DNA from: Candidatus Tritonobacter lacicola
Lineage (GTDB): Bacteria > Auribacterota > Tritonobacteria > Tritonobacterales > Tritonobacteraceae
Assembly: GCA_030765135.1 (NCBI GenBank)
Contig: JAVCDC010000077.1
Coordinates: 20,400 to 84,399, forward strand
Reading direction: 5' to 3'
DNA length: 64,000 nt
Part shown: piece by piece, positions 4,472 through 52,428 of the stretch
Position numbering within the stretch: position 1 is the stretch's first letter
Layout: each line of letters opens with the position of its first letter
Notes under the pieces: generated by a model
The model's input: only the letters and a program-made list of their open reading frames with translations
Told to the model about the DNA's origin: nothing
The model's database searches: none
Position numbers and translations under genes: made by a program

Positions 4472-4504
4472 GGGTAGGGGCGGGTTTCAAACCCGCCCCT
4501 ACCC
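4472..4504. repeat. Perfect 15-bp hairpin with 3-nt loop overlapping the prfB stop
   Basis: GGGTAGGGGCGGGTT-TCA-AACCCGCCCCTACCC. Confidence 0.95.
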
Positions 4505-5603
4505 TTTGACTGTGGACCTCAGGTACGCGTCTATGAAGCGGTCTATATCACCGTCCATTACACCACGGACGTTCCCCACTTCCACTTTCGTGCGGTGGTC
4601 CTTGACCATATTGTAGGGATGAAAAACGTACGACCGTATCTGGCTTCCCCACGCTATCTCCATCTTCTCGCCATACTGCTTCCTTATCTCCTCCTCCTTC
4701 TTCGTCCTCTCCATCTCGTACAGCCTCGCCCGCAGAACCTTCATCGCGGAGGCCTTGTTCTTGTGCTGGGACCGCTCGTTCTGGCATGTTACGACCAGGC
4801 CCGTGGGGATATGTGTAATCCGCACCGCCGAGTCCGTGACGTTCACATGCTGACCGCCGGCCCCGCTCGAGCGGAACGTGTCTACACGGAGATCCTTTTC
4901 GTTTATCTCCATCTCGCCGTCGTCCGCGATCTCCGGGATGACCTCGACAGAGGCGAAAGAGGTGTGCCGTCTCTTGCCCGAGTCAAAGGGGGATATCCTG
5001 ACCAGCCTGTGGACCCCTTTCTCCGCCCTGAGAAAACCGAAGGCGTAGTCACCCTTGATTCCGATTGTCACGCTCTTGATCCCCGCCTCTTCACCCGGAA
5101 GAAGGTTGTAGTCAACGATACCGTAACCCTTCCTCTCACACCACCGCCCGTACATCCTGAGAAGCATCTCCGCCCAGTCGCATGACTCCGTCCCGCCCGC
5201 CCCCGCGTTGATGCTCAGGATCGCGTTGCTCCTGTCATGCTCCCCGCTCAGGAGTGCCTTCAGCTCGAATGAACCAACTTCAACCGCCAGCTCTTCGATC
5301 TCGAGGGCGATCTCCCCGAGCAGCGAAGCGCCGTCGGAGTCGGAGGAAGCGAGCTCTATCATCTCCTCCATATCGGCGGCCTTCTTCTCGAAAGCCCGGA
5401 TAGCATCGGTCGGATTCTTGAGGGATGAGAGCTCGTCCACCAATACCCGGGCCCGTTCGCGCGCCTCCCAGAAAGAAGGGGCCGCCATGAGCTCCTCAAT
5501 CTCGGCTATCCGTGAGAGCTTGGCCGGGACGTCAAAGATACACCCGCATCCGAAGGACCCGTTGCCTGGTGTCCTCTAATTTCGCTTTTACTTCTTCATA
5601 CAT
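4499..5603 (-). CDS. prfB: Peptide chain release factor 2, expressed by programmed +1 frameshift at an in-frame TGA (5534..5532)
   Basis: Downstream frame has SGAGGQHVNVTDSAVRITHIPTG GGQ motif. Upstream frame MYEEVKAKLEDTRQRVLRMRVYL ends at TAT-CTT-TGA-C; shifting gives ...VYL-DVPAKLSRIAEIEELMAAPSFW. Confidence 0.93.
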
Positions 5604-5632
5604 AAATTAGCTCGCTTAACTCGCAAATTTAT
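5602..5632. repeat. 31-bp AT/GC palindromic repeat family, copy 1
   Basis: ATAAATTAGCTCGCTTAACTCGCAAATTTAT; 28/31 identical to the 51372 copy. Confidence 0.85.
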
Positions 5633-14332: not shown

Positions 14333-14363
14333 ATAAATTTGCGAGTGCAGCGAGCTAATTTAA
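14333..14363. repeat. 31-bp palindromic repeat family, copy 2 (inverted orientation)
   Basis: ATAAATTTGCGAGTGCAGCGAGCTAATTTAA; reverse complement differs from the 51372 copy at 2 of 31 positions. Confidence 0.85.
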
Positions 14364-15953
14364 ATGATAAGTAATCGGGAGAAAAACTGGATCGTCGGGT
14401 CTATCTTCGTCTTTGCCGCCGTCATGGGGATCGCCTACGTCGTCCGGGGACGGCTTTCCGGGGACGAGGGCTGGTACCTGCACGCATCGAAGCTCGTCAT
14501 GGATGGGAAGGCGCCCTATAGCGACTTCTTCTTCACGCAGGCTCCCCTTCTGCCCTATATCTTCGGGCCGGTTCTCAGGCTTATCGGTGAAAGCTACTAC
14601 GCCGGGAGGACCCTCTGCCTCGCCCTCCTCCTGGCGGGCATGGGCATGATGTGGAAAGTCAGCCGGGATATCTCCGGGCCCGCGGGAGAGATCGTGGCAA
14701 CGGCCCTCGTCGGGCTCAACCTCTTCGTCATCATGCAGGCGTGCTCGGTCATGACGCCGGCCCTCGCGCTCTTCTTCATCACGGCGAGCGTCTTCTCCCT
14801 CAGGTCCTCCTGCTCCCCTCCCATGAGGGCGATACTCTCCGTTCTCTTTATGTCGATGGGCGCGATGGTCAGGCTCAGCCTGCTGCCCGCCGTCCCCCTG
14901 CTTGTCATCTACCTCTACCTCGCCGAGGGGAAGAGGACTTCTATTGTCGTAGTCGCGATCGTTACCGCCGTGATAGCACTGGGGGCGATGCTCCTCCCGT
15001 TCGTTTACCTTGGCGGTGACCGGTTCTTCTTCGGTGCTTTAGGCTTTCACACCTCGTCGCGCCTTGCATCGCCCGCCCTCTTCATCAGGTACAAGCTCGG
15101 CTTCATCGGCGGGTGTATCAGGGAATACCTCCCCGTCGTCTTCCTGGGGGCGGTTATGATCACGAGCCTCGTGCTGCGCTTCCGGAGGCGATCCGGGGGA
15201 GAGTTCATCACTTACCTGAAACGGAACCACTTCCCTGTTTACCTCGGGGCCACGGCCGTACTGGTCACGCTCTCCCATCTCACCATCACCATGCCATGGC
15301 CGACATACGAGGTTATGCTCCTCCCTCTCATGGCCCTCGTCATCGGAGCGTGGACATGGAGCAGGCTGTCGTCGCTCAACCTCGGCAGAAAGGCCACGCT
15401 TCTGGCAGTGATCTCCATCATTATCCTGGCATGCCTCGCCATGCCGCTCGAGGAGTACGCCGTCGATGCCGGGGGGCCCTTCTCGCCCGTCGAGAAGATG
15501 TTCGAGGTCTGCAGGTTCATCGAGCAAAACGCGCGGCGTCCCATCACGATATTGACCCTGGACGCGGGGATCGCCTACCAGGGGGGCTTCGACCTGCTTC
15601 CCGGCCTCGAGATGAGCGAGTTCTCCTACTTTCCGACGTGGTCCAGGGAACGGTGCGGGGCCTACAACGTCGTAAACGTTGATATCCTGCGGGAGGCGAT
15701 AGGAGATGGGGTTCCCGGGATCATAGCCCTGCGAAACAGGGACATCTACATGATAGGAGGAAAAAATCCCGCCGGGTTTATGGACCTCATCCGGTCCAGG
15801 TACCGGTGGATCAACACCGCGACACAATACGGCCAGTTTTACGAGCCCCTACACATATTCAAGAGGAAGAAAGAGGTAACCTGCCCCGGTGGGAAAGCCT
15901 CTCCGGGGCCGGAGACTTTTCCGGGAATCCCCGACCATCTCCTCCCCTGGTAG
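14364..15953 (+). CDS. Glycosyltransferase family 39/ArnT-like membrane protein
   Basis: 529 aa; RGRLSGDEGWYLHASKLVMDGKAPYSDFFFTQAPLLPYIFGPVLRL acidic first-loop motif plus repeated TM helices. Confidence 0.7.
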   Translation: MISNREKNWIVGSIFVFAAVMGIAYVVRGRLSGDEGWYLHASKLVMDGKAPYSDFFFTQAPLLPYIFGPVLRLIGESYYAGRTLCLALLLAGMGMMWKVSRDISGPAGEIVATALVGLNLFVIMQACSVMTPALALFFITASVFSLRSSCSPPMRAILSVLFMSMGAMVRLSLLPAVPLLVIYLYLAEGKRTSIVVVAIVTAVIALGAMLLPFVYLGGDRFFFGALGFHTSSRLASPALFIRYKLGFIGGCIREYLPVVFLGAVMITSLVLRFRRRSGGEFITYLKRNHFPVYLGATAVLVTLSHLTITMPWPTYEVMLLPLMALVIGAWTWSRLSSLNLGRKATLLAVISIIILACLAMPLEEYAVDAGGPFSPVEKMFEVCRFIEQNARRPITILTLDAGIAYQGGFDLLPGLEMSEFSYFPTWSRERCGAYNVVNVDILREAIGDGVPGIIALRNRDIYMIGGKNPAGFMDLIRSRYRWINTATQYGQFYEPLHIFKRKKEVTCPGGKASPGPETFPGIPDHLLPW

Positions 15954-20358: not shown

Positions 20359-20403
20359 ACTCCGACAAAGTCGGAGTATTAATAAATTCGCGAGCTAATT
20401 TAT
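20359..20403. repeat. Composite: ACTCCGAC-AAA-GTCGGAGT hairpin plus short variant of the AT palindrome
   Basis: 8-bp perfect stem at 20359-20377, then ATAAATTCGCGAGCTAATTTAT at 20382-20403. Confidence 0.75.
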
Positions 20404-20422: not shown

Positions 20423-20683
20423 ATGCCGACCCGCAAATCAGCTCTGAAGAGGATGCGGACCGACCGCGAAAAAGGCCTGGCGAATAAATCCGTCAGGACC
20501 GAACTGAAGACCCACGCCGCCAAGCTGCGAAAAATCATAGAGAAAGGTCAAAAAGAAGATGCCGCAAGCCTCTTTACGGCCTACTCATCCAAGCTCGACA
20601 AGGCGTCCAAGAGAAATATAATCCATCCCAACAGGGCCGCGAACCAGAAGTCACGGTTCTCGAAGAAGATTGCATCCCTTTAA
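20423..20683 (+). CDS. rpsT: 30S ribosomal protein S20
   Basis: 86 aa; MPTRKSALKRMRTDREKGLANKSVRTELKT...GIIHPNRAANQKSRF-type C-terminus. Confidence 0.93.
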   Translation: MPTRKSALKRMRTDREKGLANKSVRTELKTHAAKLRKIIEKGQKEDAASLFTAYSSKLDKASKRNIIHPNRAANQKSRFSKKIASL

Positions 20684-26670: not shown

Positions 26671-27113
26671 AGAAAATAGAGAATGAGGCGAAGAAGGATA
26701 TTGGCGTAGATCGAGGAGACGAGGTCGTCCGCCATGATGCCGAGCCCCTTTCCGGCCTTCTCCGCCTTGTTGGCCGGATACGGCTTTATGATGTCCAGGA
26801 CCCTGTTCAGGGCGAAGCCGATAACGACGGCCTGGATGGAGAAAGGAATGCAGAACATGGTGATGAGGTATCCGACGACCTCGTCGATGATGACCTGCGA
26901 AGGGTCCTTCCCCCCGAGCGCCTCCTCCGCCACCGTAGAGGCCCATACGCCCAGGACGAAGAGGGCCGCAGTTATCATGAGGTAGACCTGCCACGCGAGA
27001 GGGAATACAGCCAGATACAGGAGCACGCCCACAAGGGCCCCCGCCGTTCCGGGCGCGAGAGGGCATCGACCCAGACGGCAAACGGTCGCTATGGCCAGAG
27101 CGGCTCTCTTCAA
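26667..27113 (-). CDS. pgpA: Phosphatidylglycerophosphatase A
   Basis: 148 aa; GTAGALVGVLLYL, DPSQVIIDEVVGYLITM, KAGKGLGIMADDLVSSIYAN. Confidence 0.92.
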   Translation of the reverse strand: MKRAALAIATVCRLGRCPLAPGTAGALVGVLLYLAVFPLAWQVYLMITAALFVLGVWASTVAEEALGGKDPSQVIIDEVVGYLITMFCIPFSIQAVVIGFALNRVLDIIKPYPANKAEKAGKGLGIMADDLVSSIYANILLRLILYFL

Positions 27114-27709
27114 GCCTTCTTCTCTGAAAAAAGGTTCTTGTTCTCGTATAGGTAGAGGGAGCCCGAGGCGACGGTAAAGAAGACCGCCACGAGCATGAGC
27201 AGGTACACCAGGGTCGAGAAGACAAAGCTATACGACTCGAAGGCATTTTGAAGGGCGGGAAACTTCTGATCGGAAAGGGCGAGGATGATGAGAATCACCG
27301 CTATCGCGATAGACTGGGAGAGCATCTTGTGCTTGCCGAGCTTCCCCGCCTCGAGGACCGTGTTCTCGGAAGCGGCAAGGAGCCTCAGCCCGGTGATTAA
27401 GAACTCCCTGCTGATTATAACCACCACCATCCAGAGGGGAAGGCACCACGGCTTCAGGACTGGGGACCCCATCTGGCTCAGGGATATGAAGGCGGCCGAT
27501 ATAAGGATCTTGTCCGCTATGGGGTCCATCAGCTTGCCAAAATCGGTCACGCACCCGAGCTTTCGCGCGAGCTCGCCGTCGATAGCGTCGGTGATAACTG
27601 CCACGATAAAAACGAAGCCCGCCGCAATGTACCACCGGCCCGATACCGCAGCCATGAAGAGGAACGCGAGACCGATTCGCGATATCGTTATCTTGTTAGG
27701 AAGGTTCAT
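27110..27709 (-). CDS. pgsA: CDP-diacylglycerol--glycerol-3-phosphate 3-phosphatidyltransferase
   Basis: 199 aa; MNLPNKITISRIGL, DAIDGELARKLGCVTDFGKLMDPIADK CDP-OH-P motif. Confidence 0.93.
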   Translation of the reverse strand: MNLPNKITISRIGLAFLFMAAVSGRWYIAAGFVFIVAVITDAIDGELARKLGCVTDFGKLMDPIADKILISAAFISLSQMGSPVLKPWCLPLWMVVVIISREFLITGLRLLAASENTVLEAGKLGKHKMLSQSIAIAVILIILALSDQKFPALQNAFESYSFVFSTLVYLLMLVAVFFTVASGSLYLYENKNLFSEKKA

Positions 27710-27711
27710 TA

Positions 27712-27742
27712 ATAAATTTGCGCGCTTCGCGCGCGAATTTAT
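27712..27742. repeat. 31-bp palindromic repeat family, diverged copy
   Basis: ATAAATTTGCGCGCTTCGCGCGCGAATTTAT, same length and AT arms. Confidence 0.75.
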
Positions 27743-34570: not shown

Positions 34571-34840
34571 CTATCTCCTGAGCTTCAATCTGCTGATTAT
34601 GTCTTTGTACTGTTCTTTGTCGGTATCCTTTAGATAATCGAGAAACCTGCGCCTCTTGCTGACCATCTTCAGGAGACCACTCCGGGAACTGTGGTCCTTC
34701 TTGTGCGTCTCCAGGTGATCGGCGAGTTCTTTGATCCGCTCCGTGAGAAGCGCTATCTGAACGCCGGCCGAACCTGTGTCGGCCTCGTGGCGCCTGTACT
34801 CATCTTTTATCGTTTCCGTCCGGGCTCTATCCAGAACCAT
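34571..34840 (-). CDS. rpsO: 30S ribosomal protein S15
   Basis: 89 aa; [53 protein letters not shown]. Confidence 0.96.
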
Positions 34841-34920: not shown

Positions 34921-34951
34921 ATAAATCAGCTCGTTCAGCGGGCAAATTTAT
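34921..34951. repeat. 31-bp palindromic repeat family, diverged copy
   Basis: ATAAATCAGCTCGTTCAGCGGGCAAATTTAT. Confidence 0.75.
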
Positions 34952-34966: not shown

Positions 34967-35896
34967 TTATTCTTTGGCACGGAAGCTCTTCGCCGCTTCC
35001 CGCTCGTCTTCCTTTATGCGCCTGACCAGTTCCTCCGTGCTGCCGAACTTCATATCCCCTCTTATCCTGGAGACGAACGATATCTCGATATCTTCCCCGT
35101 ATATCATGCCGTCGAACCCCACCAGGTAAACCTCCACGCTTATATCCCCCCCGCCGAAGGTTGGTCTCCTTCCGATATAGAGGAGTCCTTCATGGGAGGC
35201 GTCACGCACCCTCGCCCTCACGGCGTAGACGCCTTCCGGGGGAATCGCCTCGTGGTGGGGATCAACGTTCGCCGTGGGATAGCCGAGCCTCCTGCCGAGA
35301 GTCCGGCCTCTTATTATCGTCCCCAGGATCGAATACGGCCTCCCGAGAAGCGTTGAGGCTTCATCGAGCCGCCCGGTTCCGATGGCGCTTCTGATGGCAG
35401 TGCTGCTCACCACTGCCCCCCCCGCCCTGACGGGCGGCACACAGCTCACCTCGAACCCCATTTCCTCCCCCATGGACTTCAGCGCATCCGTGTCACCCCC
35501 GCGGTCCCGGCCGAAGACGAAGTTGCTTCCGACGCACACGGCTGCGATGTTCATGGCCGAACAAAGGTATCCGGCAACGAACTCCCTGGCAGACAAGCTC
35601 ATAAGCTTCCTGTCGAACGCGACAACAAGACAGACGTCAACGCCCGAGGCATCTATCAGCCTGAGTTTGTGCGCCTCGGATATAAGAGAAGGGGGGCACG
35701 ATCCGCCGTCCACCAATCGCCGCGGATGCGGGTCGAATGTGACAACAGCACTCGAAGCATCCATCCTCTTCGCGAGCCTCACGAGTTCCGAAAGGACCTT
35801 CTTGTGGCCGAGGTGGACGCCGTCGTACGACCCTATCGTCACGGCGAACCGCTCATCAATCCCTTTAACCTCGTCTATATTTTTATATATCCTCAT
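34967..35896 (-). CDS. ribF: Bifunctional riboflavin kinase/FAD synthetase
   Basis: MRIYKNIDEVKG... with TIGSYDGVHLGHKKVL and GRRLGYPTANV; track ORF extends to 35923. Confidence 0.9.
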   Translation of the reverse strand: MRIYKNIDEVKGIDERFAVTIGSYDGVHLGHKKVLSELVRLAKRMDASSAVVTFDPHPRRLVDGGSCPPSLISEAHKLRLIDASGVDVCLVVAFDRKLMSLSAREFVAGYLCSAMNIAAVCVGSNFVFGRDRGGDTDALKSMGEEMGFEVSCVPPVRAGGAVVSSTAIRSAIGTGRLDEASTLLGRPYSILGTIIRGRTLGRRLGYPTANVDPHHEAIPPEGVYAVRARVRDASHEGLLYIGRRPTFGGGDISVEVYLVGFDGMIYGEDIEISFVSRIRGDMKFGSTEELVRRIKEDEREAAKSFRAKE

Positions 35897-37162: not shown

Positions 37163-37444
37163 CTACAGCATATCAATACTGTAGTCCAGGATTTCAACGG
37201 TCCCCATAGCATCAACAAGCTTCACAACACCGGTCAGGATGCCGTGAGCGTGGCCGGTATCCGTGCTCACGGTGCTCACGCCGATCACGGCACGGCCCCA
37301 CACATCGTTATCCCCCACCTCGGCAATCGCAATGTTGAACCGGTTGCGCAATCGCGCCTTTATTCTGCTGACGACCGCCCTCTTCCCTTTCAGGGACCTG
37401 TTCCCGGGTATCCTCAACTCCAAGCTTAAGACGCCGATAACCAT
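37163..37444 (-). CDS. DUF503 (YlxP-like) protein
   Basis: 93 aa; LELRIPGNRSLKGKRAVVSRIKARLRNRFNIAIAEVGDNDVW. Confidence 0.85.
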   Translation of the reverse strand: MVIGVLSLELRIPGNRSLKGKRAVVSRIKARLRNRFNIAIAEVGDNDVWGRAVIGVSTVSTDTGHAHGILTGVVKLVDAMGTVEILDYSIDML

Positions 37445-37445
37445 A

Positions 37446-37516
37446 ATAAATTAATTCGCTTTCTGCCTGCCGGCAGGCAGGCGCCCGTTAATTTATCCGG
37501 ACCGACCCCGTCGGAG
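37446..37516. repeat. Composite palindrome: AT arms enclosing CTGCCTGCCGGCAGGCAG, then CCGAC-CC-GTCGG hairpin
   Basis: 18-bp perfect palindrome at 37463-37480 nested between ATAAATTAA and TTAATTTAT. Confidence 0.75.
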
Positions 37517-50252: not shown

Positions 50253-51368
50253 ATGGAAAAATTCGATGTGTTGATTATAGGCGCCGGCGTAGTGGGGCTC
50301 GCCTGCGCTAGAGAGATCTCGAATGAGGGGCTTTCCGTCGTCGTCGCCGAGAAAAACTCGTCGTTCGGAGAGGAGACATCGAGCCGCAACAGCGAGATCA
50401 TTCATGCCGGACTCTACTACAAGCCCGGCTCGTTGAAGGCTAAGCTGTGCATCGAAGGCCGCCGCCGCCTGGTAGAACTCTGCCGGGAGCACGGTATCCC
50501 GTTCAAGCTGACCGGAAAGATCATCGTGTCGATAACGGAGGCTGAAACGGGCCAGCTCGAGGCGCTTAAAAGGAACGCGGAGGAGTGCGGCGCCGACACC
50601 CTGACGATGCTCACGGGGAAAGAAGTCGCGGCGATGGAGCCCGCCGTCACGGCGTCCTCGGGCCTCCTTTCTCCAGGCACGGGCATCATCGACACTCACT
50701 CCCTCATGGCGTTTTTCCTCCGCTCGGCCGAGGAGAACGGGGCGATCGTGGTCTTCGACTCTCCCGTCGAGGAAATCACGCCGGAAGACGGGCTCTACCG
50801 TATCGCCCTCGGCGACCGAGACGCTACACGCTTCGCCTCAAGGGTCGTCGTCAACGCGGCTGGACTCAACGCCGACGGAGTGGCGGAGATGGCAGGCATT
50901 GATACCGATAAACATGGCTACAGGCTCCACCTCGCCAAGGGGGAGTACTTCCGCGTTGGAGGAAAGTCGCCCGTGAGCAGGCTGATCTACCCAGTCCCGA
51001 AGTCCGGGGGGGGGCACCTCGGCATCCACACGGTCATCGACCTCGCGGGCAGTCTGAAGCTAGGCCCGAACGAGTACTACGTCACGGAGATCGAGTACTC
51101 GGTCAACCCCGACAACCTGGCGCCGACATACGACTCGGTGCGCAAGTTCATCCCGGGGCTTGAGATAAGCGGCCTTTCGCCCGACATGTCGGGAATAAGG
51201 CCGAGGCTCTACCTGAAGGGAGAGGAAGTGCGCGACTTCGTGATCTGCGACGAGCGGGATAAAGGCCTCCCGGGCTTTATCAACCTCATAGGCATAGAAT
51301 CCCCCGGCCTCACCGCCGCGCCAGCCATCGCCCGGCATGTATCTTCACTGGTCAAGCCTTACCTATAA
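50253..51368 (+). CDS. L-2-hydroxyglutarate oxidase-like FAD-dependent oxidoreductase
   Basis: 371 aa; MEKFDVLIIGAGVVGLACAREIS, HAGLYYKPGSLKAKLCIEGRR, GHLGIHTVIDLAGSLKLGPNEYY. Confidence 0.85.
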   Translation: MEKFDVLIIGAGVVGLACAREISNEGLSVVVAEKNSSFGEETSSRNSEIIHAGLYYKPGSLKAKLCIEGRRRLVELCREHGIPFKLTGKIIVSITEAETGQLEALKRNAEECGADTLTMLTGKEVAAMEPAVTASSGLLSPGTGIIDTHSLMAFFLRSAEENGAIVVFDSPVEEITPEDGLYRIALGDRDATRFASRVVVNAAGLNADGVAEMAGIDTDKHGYRLHLAKGEYFRVGGKSPVSRLIYPVPKSGGGHLGIHTVIDLAGSLKLGPNEYYVTEIEYSVNPDNLAPTYDSVRKFIPGLEISGLSPDMSGIRPRLYLKGEEVRDFVICDERDKGLPGFINLIGIESPGLTAAPAIARHVSSLVKPYL

Positions 51369-51371
51369 AAT

Positions 51372-51402
51372 ATAAATTAGCTCGCTGCGCTCGCAAATTT
51401 AT
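51372..51402. repeat. 31-bp palindromic repeat family, reference copy
   Basis: ATAAATTAGCTCGCTGCGCTCGCAAATTTAT. Confidence 0.85.
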
Positions 51403-52310: not shown

Positions 52311-52338
52311 CTTTTTTTCAACCTTGCGGGGTCGACCT

Positions 52339-52428
52339 TGTGGGGTCGGGTCTTCACATTTCACATCTTCAATACGTCTTTATGATATACATAGTGACAA
52401 ATGTGAAATGTGAAGACCTGACCCCACA
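52339..52428. repeat. REP/IS200-like long inverted repeat (28-bp arms, 34-nt spacer)
   Basis: 52339-52366 TGTGGGGTCGGGTCTTCACATTTCACAT versus reverse complement of 52401-52428 TGTGGGGTCAGGTCTTCACATTTCACAT: 27/28 identity. Confidence 0.9.

Follow-up and report, generated by a model that had tools for sequence, protein, structure and literature searches.

A 31-nt imperfect hairpin, dispersed through the intergenic spacers of the host genome and of anammox bacteria from another phylum, lies with one particular end against gene boundaries, either the start codon of the gene that it precedes or the stop codon of a gene that faces it. This flush position and its polarity are the new observations made here; they were absent from the original prediction of the element. 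The explanation towards which we lean, with confidence only a little above even, is that the element is a REP-like non-autonomous mobile hairpin that would have been domesticated, in some places as a leader carrying the ribosome-binding site and in others as a 3'-end hairpin.

The element in the 64-kb window

In the window, i.e., the whole 64-kb stretch of DNA that was analysed, five 31-nt elements had been predicted (at 5602, 14333, 27712, 34921 and 51372). All are present there, with the claimed similarities of 28/31 between copies 5602 and 51372 and 29/31 between the reverse complement of copy 14333 and copy 51372. The shorter and longer relatives expected at 20382-20403 and 37446-37496 were also found and measure 22 nt and 51 nt (Table 1). 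A search for the arms ATAAATT and AATTTAT, allowing up to two mismatches and requiring exactly 17 nt between them, returned five such spacings in the window and none in any of 10 shuffles.

Table 1. Coordinates of the element, its variants and its companion hairpin
Feature	Position	Strand	Context
31-nt hairpin element	51372..51402	minus (GA strand)	stop-flush copy
31-nt element	5602..5632	minus	last two bases (AT) are part of the prfB ATG, start 5603
31-nt element	14333..14363	plus	0 nt (flush) to ATG of ORF 14364-15953
31-nt element	27712..27742	minus	2 nt upstream of ATG, pgsA-like gene 27110-27709
31-nt copy, degenerate	34921..34951	minus	spacer between ribF-like gene (34967-35896) and rpsO (34571-34840)
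22-nt copy without inner stem and loop	20382..20403	plus	directly before native Shine-Dalgarno (SD) sequence (AGGAG) of rpsT (20423-20683)
HP1, companion hairpin CTCCGAC-AAA-GTCGGAG	20360..20376	plus	upstream of 22-nt copy; read from sequence
51-nt copy	37446..37496	minus	1 nt before ATG of DUF503 gene (37163-37444), beside infB
Copies with a palindrome in the loop	window 37446-37496; G000 C34:42381, C41:432, C143:1072, C141:4980

The stop-flush copy faces the gene 50253-51368 (plus strand), whose stop codon is 3 nt away from the right end of the element. The prfB gene (5603-4499, minus strand; main ORF 4499-5488, with PCRF and RF-1 domains) contains the programmed frameshift site CTT-TGA (CTT TGA C), whose in-frame TGA at 5534-5532 lies 23 codons past position 5603, and we therefore place the start there, with the AT of its ATG contributed by the element. 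The longest-ATG annotation, at 5488, misses this true start. The copy in front of the pgsA-like gene, which encodes a CDP-OH_P_transf domain, has its GA mismatch repaired to a perfect stem, and the degenerate copy near rpsO is not flush with the rpsO start and reaches E=0.16 with the covariance model in the window. The loop of the 51-nt copy holds a CCTGCCTGCCGGCAGGCAG hairpin. Other palindromes (CCTGCCTGCCGGCAGGCAGG; CCTGAGCTTGTCGAAGG) were also seen in the loop of the element, where the whole stays a longer hairpin. At 52330-52425 a spacer contains a long inverted repeat (GGTCGGGTCTTCACATTTCACA ... TGTGAAATGTGAAGACCTGACCCC), possibly of another repeat family, to which Rfam gives spurious miRNA matches only.

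Fold, polarity and companion hairpin

When the copies are oriented by purine content, the GA strand has the consensus ATAAATT N GC GA GC GNA GC GA GC T AATTTAT, whose fold has AT pairs in its outer stem and, further in, two stems of 2 bp each with a conserved tandem G·A/A·G mismatch between them; a GNA triloop closes the inner one. The element carries ATAA/TTAT at its two ends and is polar: the right arm of the GA strand is purine-rich and ends with (A/G)GGAGC or GCGAGC followed by TAATTTAT. Both partners vary in pairs 9:23, 10:22 and 13:19, for the most part from GC to AT, and pair 14:18 wobbles; the GNA loop and the tandem GA/GA mismatch are mostly retained. The pooled two-phylum alignment contains 45 cells with double changes versus 14.5±6 in shuffles. 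It is the shape and not the inner sequence that is conserved. The two CTCGC/GCGAGC motifs noted in the core, originally taken for direct repeats, are really the left and right half of a single imperfect hairpin, GCTCGC-TTC-GCTCGC, with GC, TC and GC on either side of the loop and a 2x2 mismatch that is GA/GA on the other strand. Folded as RNA, the GA strand has a modest energy of -4.5 to -7 kcal/mol.

A second triloop hairpin, HP1, often with a GNA loop, stands about 4 nt upstream of the element in 33 of the 91 host copies and 51 of the 79 Brocadiales copies (9% and 15%, respectively, when shuffled); its typical form is GCTCCGAC-GNA-GTCGGAGC in the host and ATTTTGC-GNA-GCAAAAT in Scalindua. 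About a dozen copies in the host genome (G000) have additional hairpin sequence in the loop. A larger composite (TATAGGAATTTGTTATG...GGTAGCC..GGCTACC-HP1-HP2 in the host) is real for roughly 15 copies and is not the unit because it is absent from most of them, and a longer full-length element in Scalindua was rejected as well, HP1 alone being general there. A second, GTAG-tagged palindrome family (GGTAGCC...GGCTACC), which follows a conserved TATAGGAATTTGTTATG stretch, often lies to the left of the element in host spacers (e.g., L108, L091 and L095).

Copy number and distribution

The count over the host genome (3.21 Mb in 148 contigs), set against chance, gave 74 copies with exact arms and exactly 17 nt between them and none for the reversed-pattern control. 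The covariance model (E<=0.05) recovers 104, so that the hundreds of copies per genome that had been expected come down to about 100. In a survey of 44 genomes of the host phylum, the same model found 104 copies in G000, 36 in G031, three in G013 and none in the other 41. G013 agrees in offset and flanks with the record of Ca. Euphemobacter frigidus, so that the phylum is probably Ca. Auribacterota. Outside it the structural pattern is largely confined to Ca. Scalindua and its relatives among the Brocadiales (Planctomycetota; anammox bacteria), where a second model detected 66 copies in S. rubra, 26, 15, 9, 6, 3, 2, 2, 1 and 1 in its relatives, and none in 10 of the 20 Brocadiales genomes searched. 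A few single matches elsewhere (Butyrivibrio, Companilactobacillus and others) may be due to chance, a guess made from their number. A 59-nt HP1-HP2 query had no match in a plasmid collection, and no description of this element was found in the open literature, within our incomplete coverage of it.

Relation to REP sequences

The patchiness of the element, its copy number and the presence of near-identical composites at unrelated places point to a mobile repeat. It resembles the REP sequences associated with TnpA-REP/RAYT (PMC8266576, PMC3733652) in being a short (31 nt, within the 20-50 nt range) imperfect palindrome that is present in about 100 copies (104 in the host), mostly intergenic and patchy between relatives, with a conserved mismatch within its stem. 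The two differ in the AT outer arms of the element, its flush position at starts and facing stops and the SD-like sequence in one of its arms, and also in two features of REPs (PMC8266576, PMC3733652). First, no GTAG (or CGTC) tetranucleotide is conserved next to the palindrome: GTAG/CTAC occurs within 12 nt of either end in 8 of 109 host and 11 of 107 Brocadiales copies, and no other conserved tag was seen. Second, it has no linked or co-distributed Y1 transposase (RAYT). The search for a RAYT/IS200-like transposase that had been proposed as a check revealed none that adjoins or tracks the element convincingly; RAYTs are encoded in 34 of the 44 genomes of the phylum and the element is present in three. 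At seven of the eight host RAYT loci examined there is no copy within about 2 kb; at the eighth the nearby copy (contig C126) fronts what reads as tmRNA, and the closest relatives of this RAYT are in genomes without the element. Among 19 RAYT loci in 17 genomes (further ones or the same) the only copy nearby was again that on C126. No insertion with target duplication was seen. What holds of the predicted small non-autonomous mobile repeat (REP/MITE-like) is a dispersed, patchy palindromic repeat of about 104 copies found in two phyla, which is REP-like in form only.

Placement against gene boundaries

Gene calls were trained on the analysed DNA, with starts taken from a simple caller. In 56 of 91 host copies and 60 of 79 Brocadiales copies, no more than 5 nt separate the right end of the element (3' of the GA strand) from a coding boundary. 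Uniform placement in the same spacers predicts 20.2±2.7 and 8.7±2.1, each copy being treated as independent in these enrichment tests; for the left end the numbers are 13 and 7 copies. The boundary at the right end is the start of a sense gene in 43 host and 36 Brocadiales copies and the native stop of a facing gene in 13 and 24. Start codons are flush with the right end 79 times (43 and 36) and with the left end never (43:0 and 36:0). Because facing stops are flush as well, what we see is a polarity of the right end rather than a simple orientation to transcription. Eleven of 109 host copies overlap the interior of a called gene, several of them through the choice of start.

The flush genes have textbook N-termini (MRKRIIAGNWKMN, MRRSKIVATLGPAS, MQIKISASILAAD, MEKMVIEGGHPLYGRVKINGAKNAA), and the C-termini of facing genes with flush stops (TPI, CarB, PheT, UGD) look native. 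Many of the copies that are not flush with an ATG end just upstream of a native SD sequence (AAAGGAGG, AAGGAG and similar). A few copies stand right before tmRNA- or tRNA-like genes (G000 C126:16395, C55:5726 and C28:12333), as judged by eye and not by a tRNA scan.

The copies at facing stops would suit a bidirectional terminator of the ordinary kind, or a REP whose action is confined to mRNA 3' ends, as would the UGD locus of G050, where another hairpin takes the place of the element. We consider such a role very improbable: the fold is of modest energy, the AT outer stem without a U run departs from the stable GC stem and U run of an intrinsic terminator, and several of the 79 copies that touch a start codon lie inside tight same-direction gene pairs, in which a terminator would shut off the second gene.

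A possible Shine-Dalgarno signal in the right arm

CT/AG and CC/GG are frequent inner stems in Brocadiales, so that the right arm reads AGGAGC or GGGAGC; this sequence lies 7-9 nt before a flush ATG. GGAG or AGGA is present in 40 of 49 start-flush copies versus 30 of 58 others (p=0.002), and the inner stem is intact in 63% of start-flush copies versus about 82% of others (p=0.028), copies being taken as independent in both comparisons although a few are orthologues. Start-flush copies with a broken stem keep GGA in 14 of 15 cases. Selection on the start-flush copies of Brocadiales seems to keep the SD sequence and not the hairpin, and the adjoining gene seems to have taken over the right arm as its ribosome-binding site. 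This reading is weaker in the host genome because the arm there offers only GAG (44 of 52 copies) and no GGA; about half of the other host genes have an SD core. About seven host start-flush copies have not even GAG and therefore cannot act through a classical SD sequence.

In SD-sequestering RNA hairpins such as the ROSE and fourU thermometers, the SD sequence lies near the AUG, within the 3' arm of a hairpin with mismatches. The element shares this arrangement, with covarying pairs in addition, and at some orthologous starts its copies are conserved between genera, so that a cis-regulatory RNA that hides the SD sequence, unfolds in response to temperature or a protein and controls a regulon has to be weighed. 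We think it quite unlikely. Unlike the thermometers, the element also stands at unrelated genes and non-start sites, many copies facing stop codons or lying elsewhere, and its stem decays where the SD sequence would be used: at starts it is weaker, not stronger. Close relatives with the same genes are without the element. No functional theme was seen by eye among the downstream genes, and a regulon by gene function was rejected on this basis. Rfam gave no match at gathering score in the window and, near four copies (E<=1), unrelated matches only, far below gathering scores. A conserved protein or RNA signal had been the other half of the original prediction; in its favour are the conservation of some Brocadiales copies at orthologous starts and the SD-like behaviour of their 3' arm.

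Orthologous loci

The comparison of orthologous spacers, which had also been proposed, revealed three kinds of allele (occupied, decayed and empty) among the rpe, AKR and UGD loci. Between pgk and rpe the element is present in S. rubra, OFTM180, G045 and G046, and decayed in G047, G061, G088 and G079 (three of the four keep GGA in that arm). It is absent from the AT-rich spacers of G048, G050, G053 and G076, which show no clear SD sequence. At the AKR start it is present in S. rubra and G046, with other spacers elsewhere; in S. arabica the left half of an HP1 only is followed by the ATG. At the UGD stop S. rubra, G045 and G046 have the element. Four relatives without it (L358-L361) have a different short spacer between the same convergent-gene flanks; in G050 this is a 32-nt hairpin. 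The orthologous copies in different Brocadiales genera (rpe, UGD) show that the element is inherited vertically too, which counts against the mobile explanation.

At rpe (OFTM180) and UGD the 31-mer stands in place of a spacer of about 32-34 nt and is not added to it. Together with the polarity of the ends and the near-identical host copies, which are already near the right-hand gene, this replacement would fit a mobile element with a site-specific enzyme directed at gene boundaries, so that flushness comes from insertion itself and not from later selection or deletion. We regard this as unlikely: there is no common target sequence on either side of the element, and the enzyme would need to recognise boundaries as unrelated as ATG codons, facing stops, SD sequences and tRNA 5' ends. 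We know of no enzyme that recognises such varied gene boundaries.

Discussion

In the explanation that we favour, a REP-like mobile hairpin turned into a leader or 3' end, copies would persist where they are able to take over the role of the spacer. Where the right side abuts a sense start codon, the right arm would come to lie at SD distance and serve as the ribosome-binding site; where it abuts the stop codon of a facing gene, the element would become the 3'-end hairpin of that gene. The spacer DNA between the element and the gene would then be missing. It is because of polarity and flushness together that we see the persisting copies as those able to replace a ribosome-binding site or a 3'-end hairpin. 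The element would have spread by transposition, ribosomes would use its right arm, and the stop-flush copies may serve mRNA 3' ends. Flushness may arise by later deletion or by site choice; the latter is favoured because of the near-identical host copies, whose nearness to the right-hand gene is not easily explained by selection after insertion. No mobilising enzyme was found, and no transposase is linked to the element. A bolder form of the idea, in which a portable ribosome-binding hairpin common to Auribacterota and anammox Planctomycetota replaces whole gene-to-gene spacers and is moved by a boundary-recognising enzyme, is in our opinion doubtful.

The nearest parallel in placement is that of the TAACTGA repeats of marine Beggiatoaceae (PMC4679880), which are also dispersed and oriented, have no functional theme, are common to distant lineages and mostly end within a few nucleotides of start codons, replacing the SD sequence. 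Those are direct repeats of a heptamer, form no palindrome and have little SD character (PMC4679880), whereas the element described here is a covarying hairpin with an SD-like arm and is also found at facing stops.

The usual view of REP-like repeats is that they are spacer debris or stabilisers of mRNA 3' ends. In our case a dispersed repeat occupies the very site that ribosomes need for binding, and does so at housekeeping genes (prfB, tpiA, alaS, lon, murA and rpe, among others). The finding offers a testable route by which repeats may become translation signals, with one lineage that seems to keep the Shine-Dalgarno sequence and lose the hairpin, and the occupied, decayed and empty alleles in Scalindua provide a natural comparison set for ribosome-binding site turnover.
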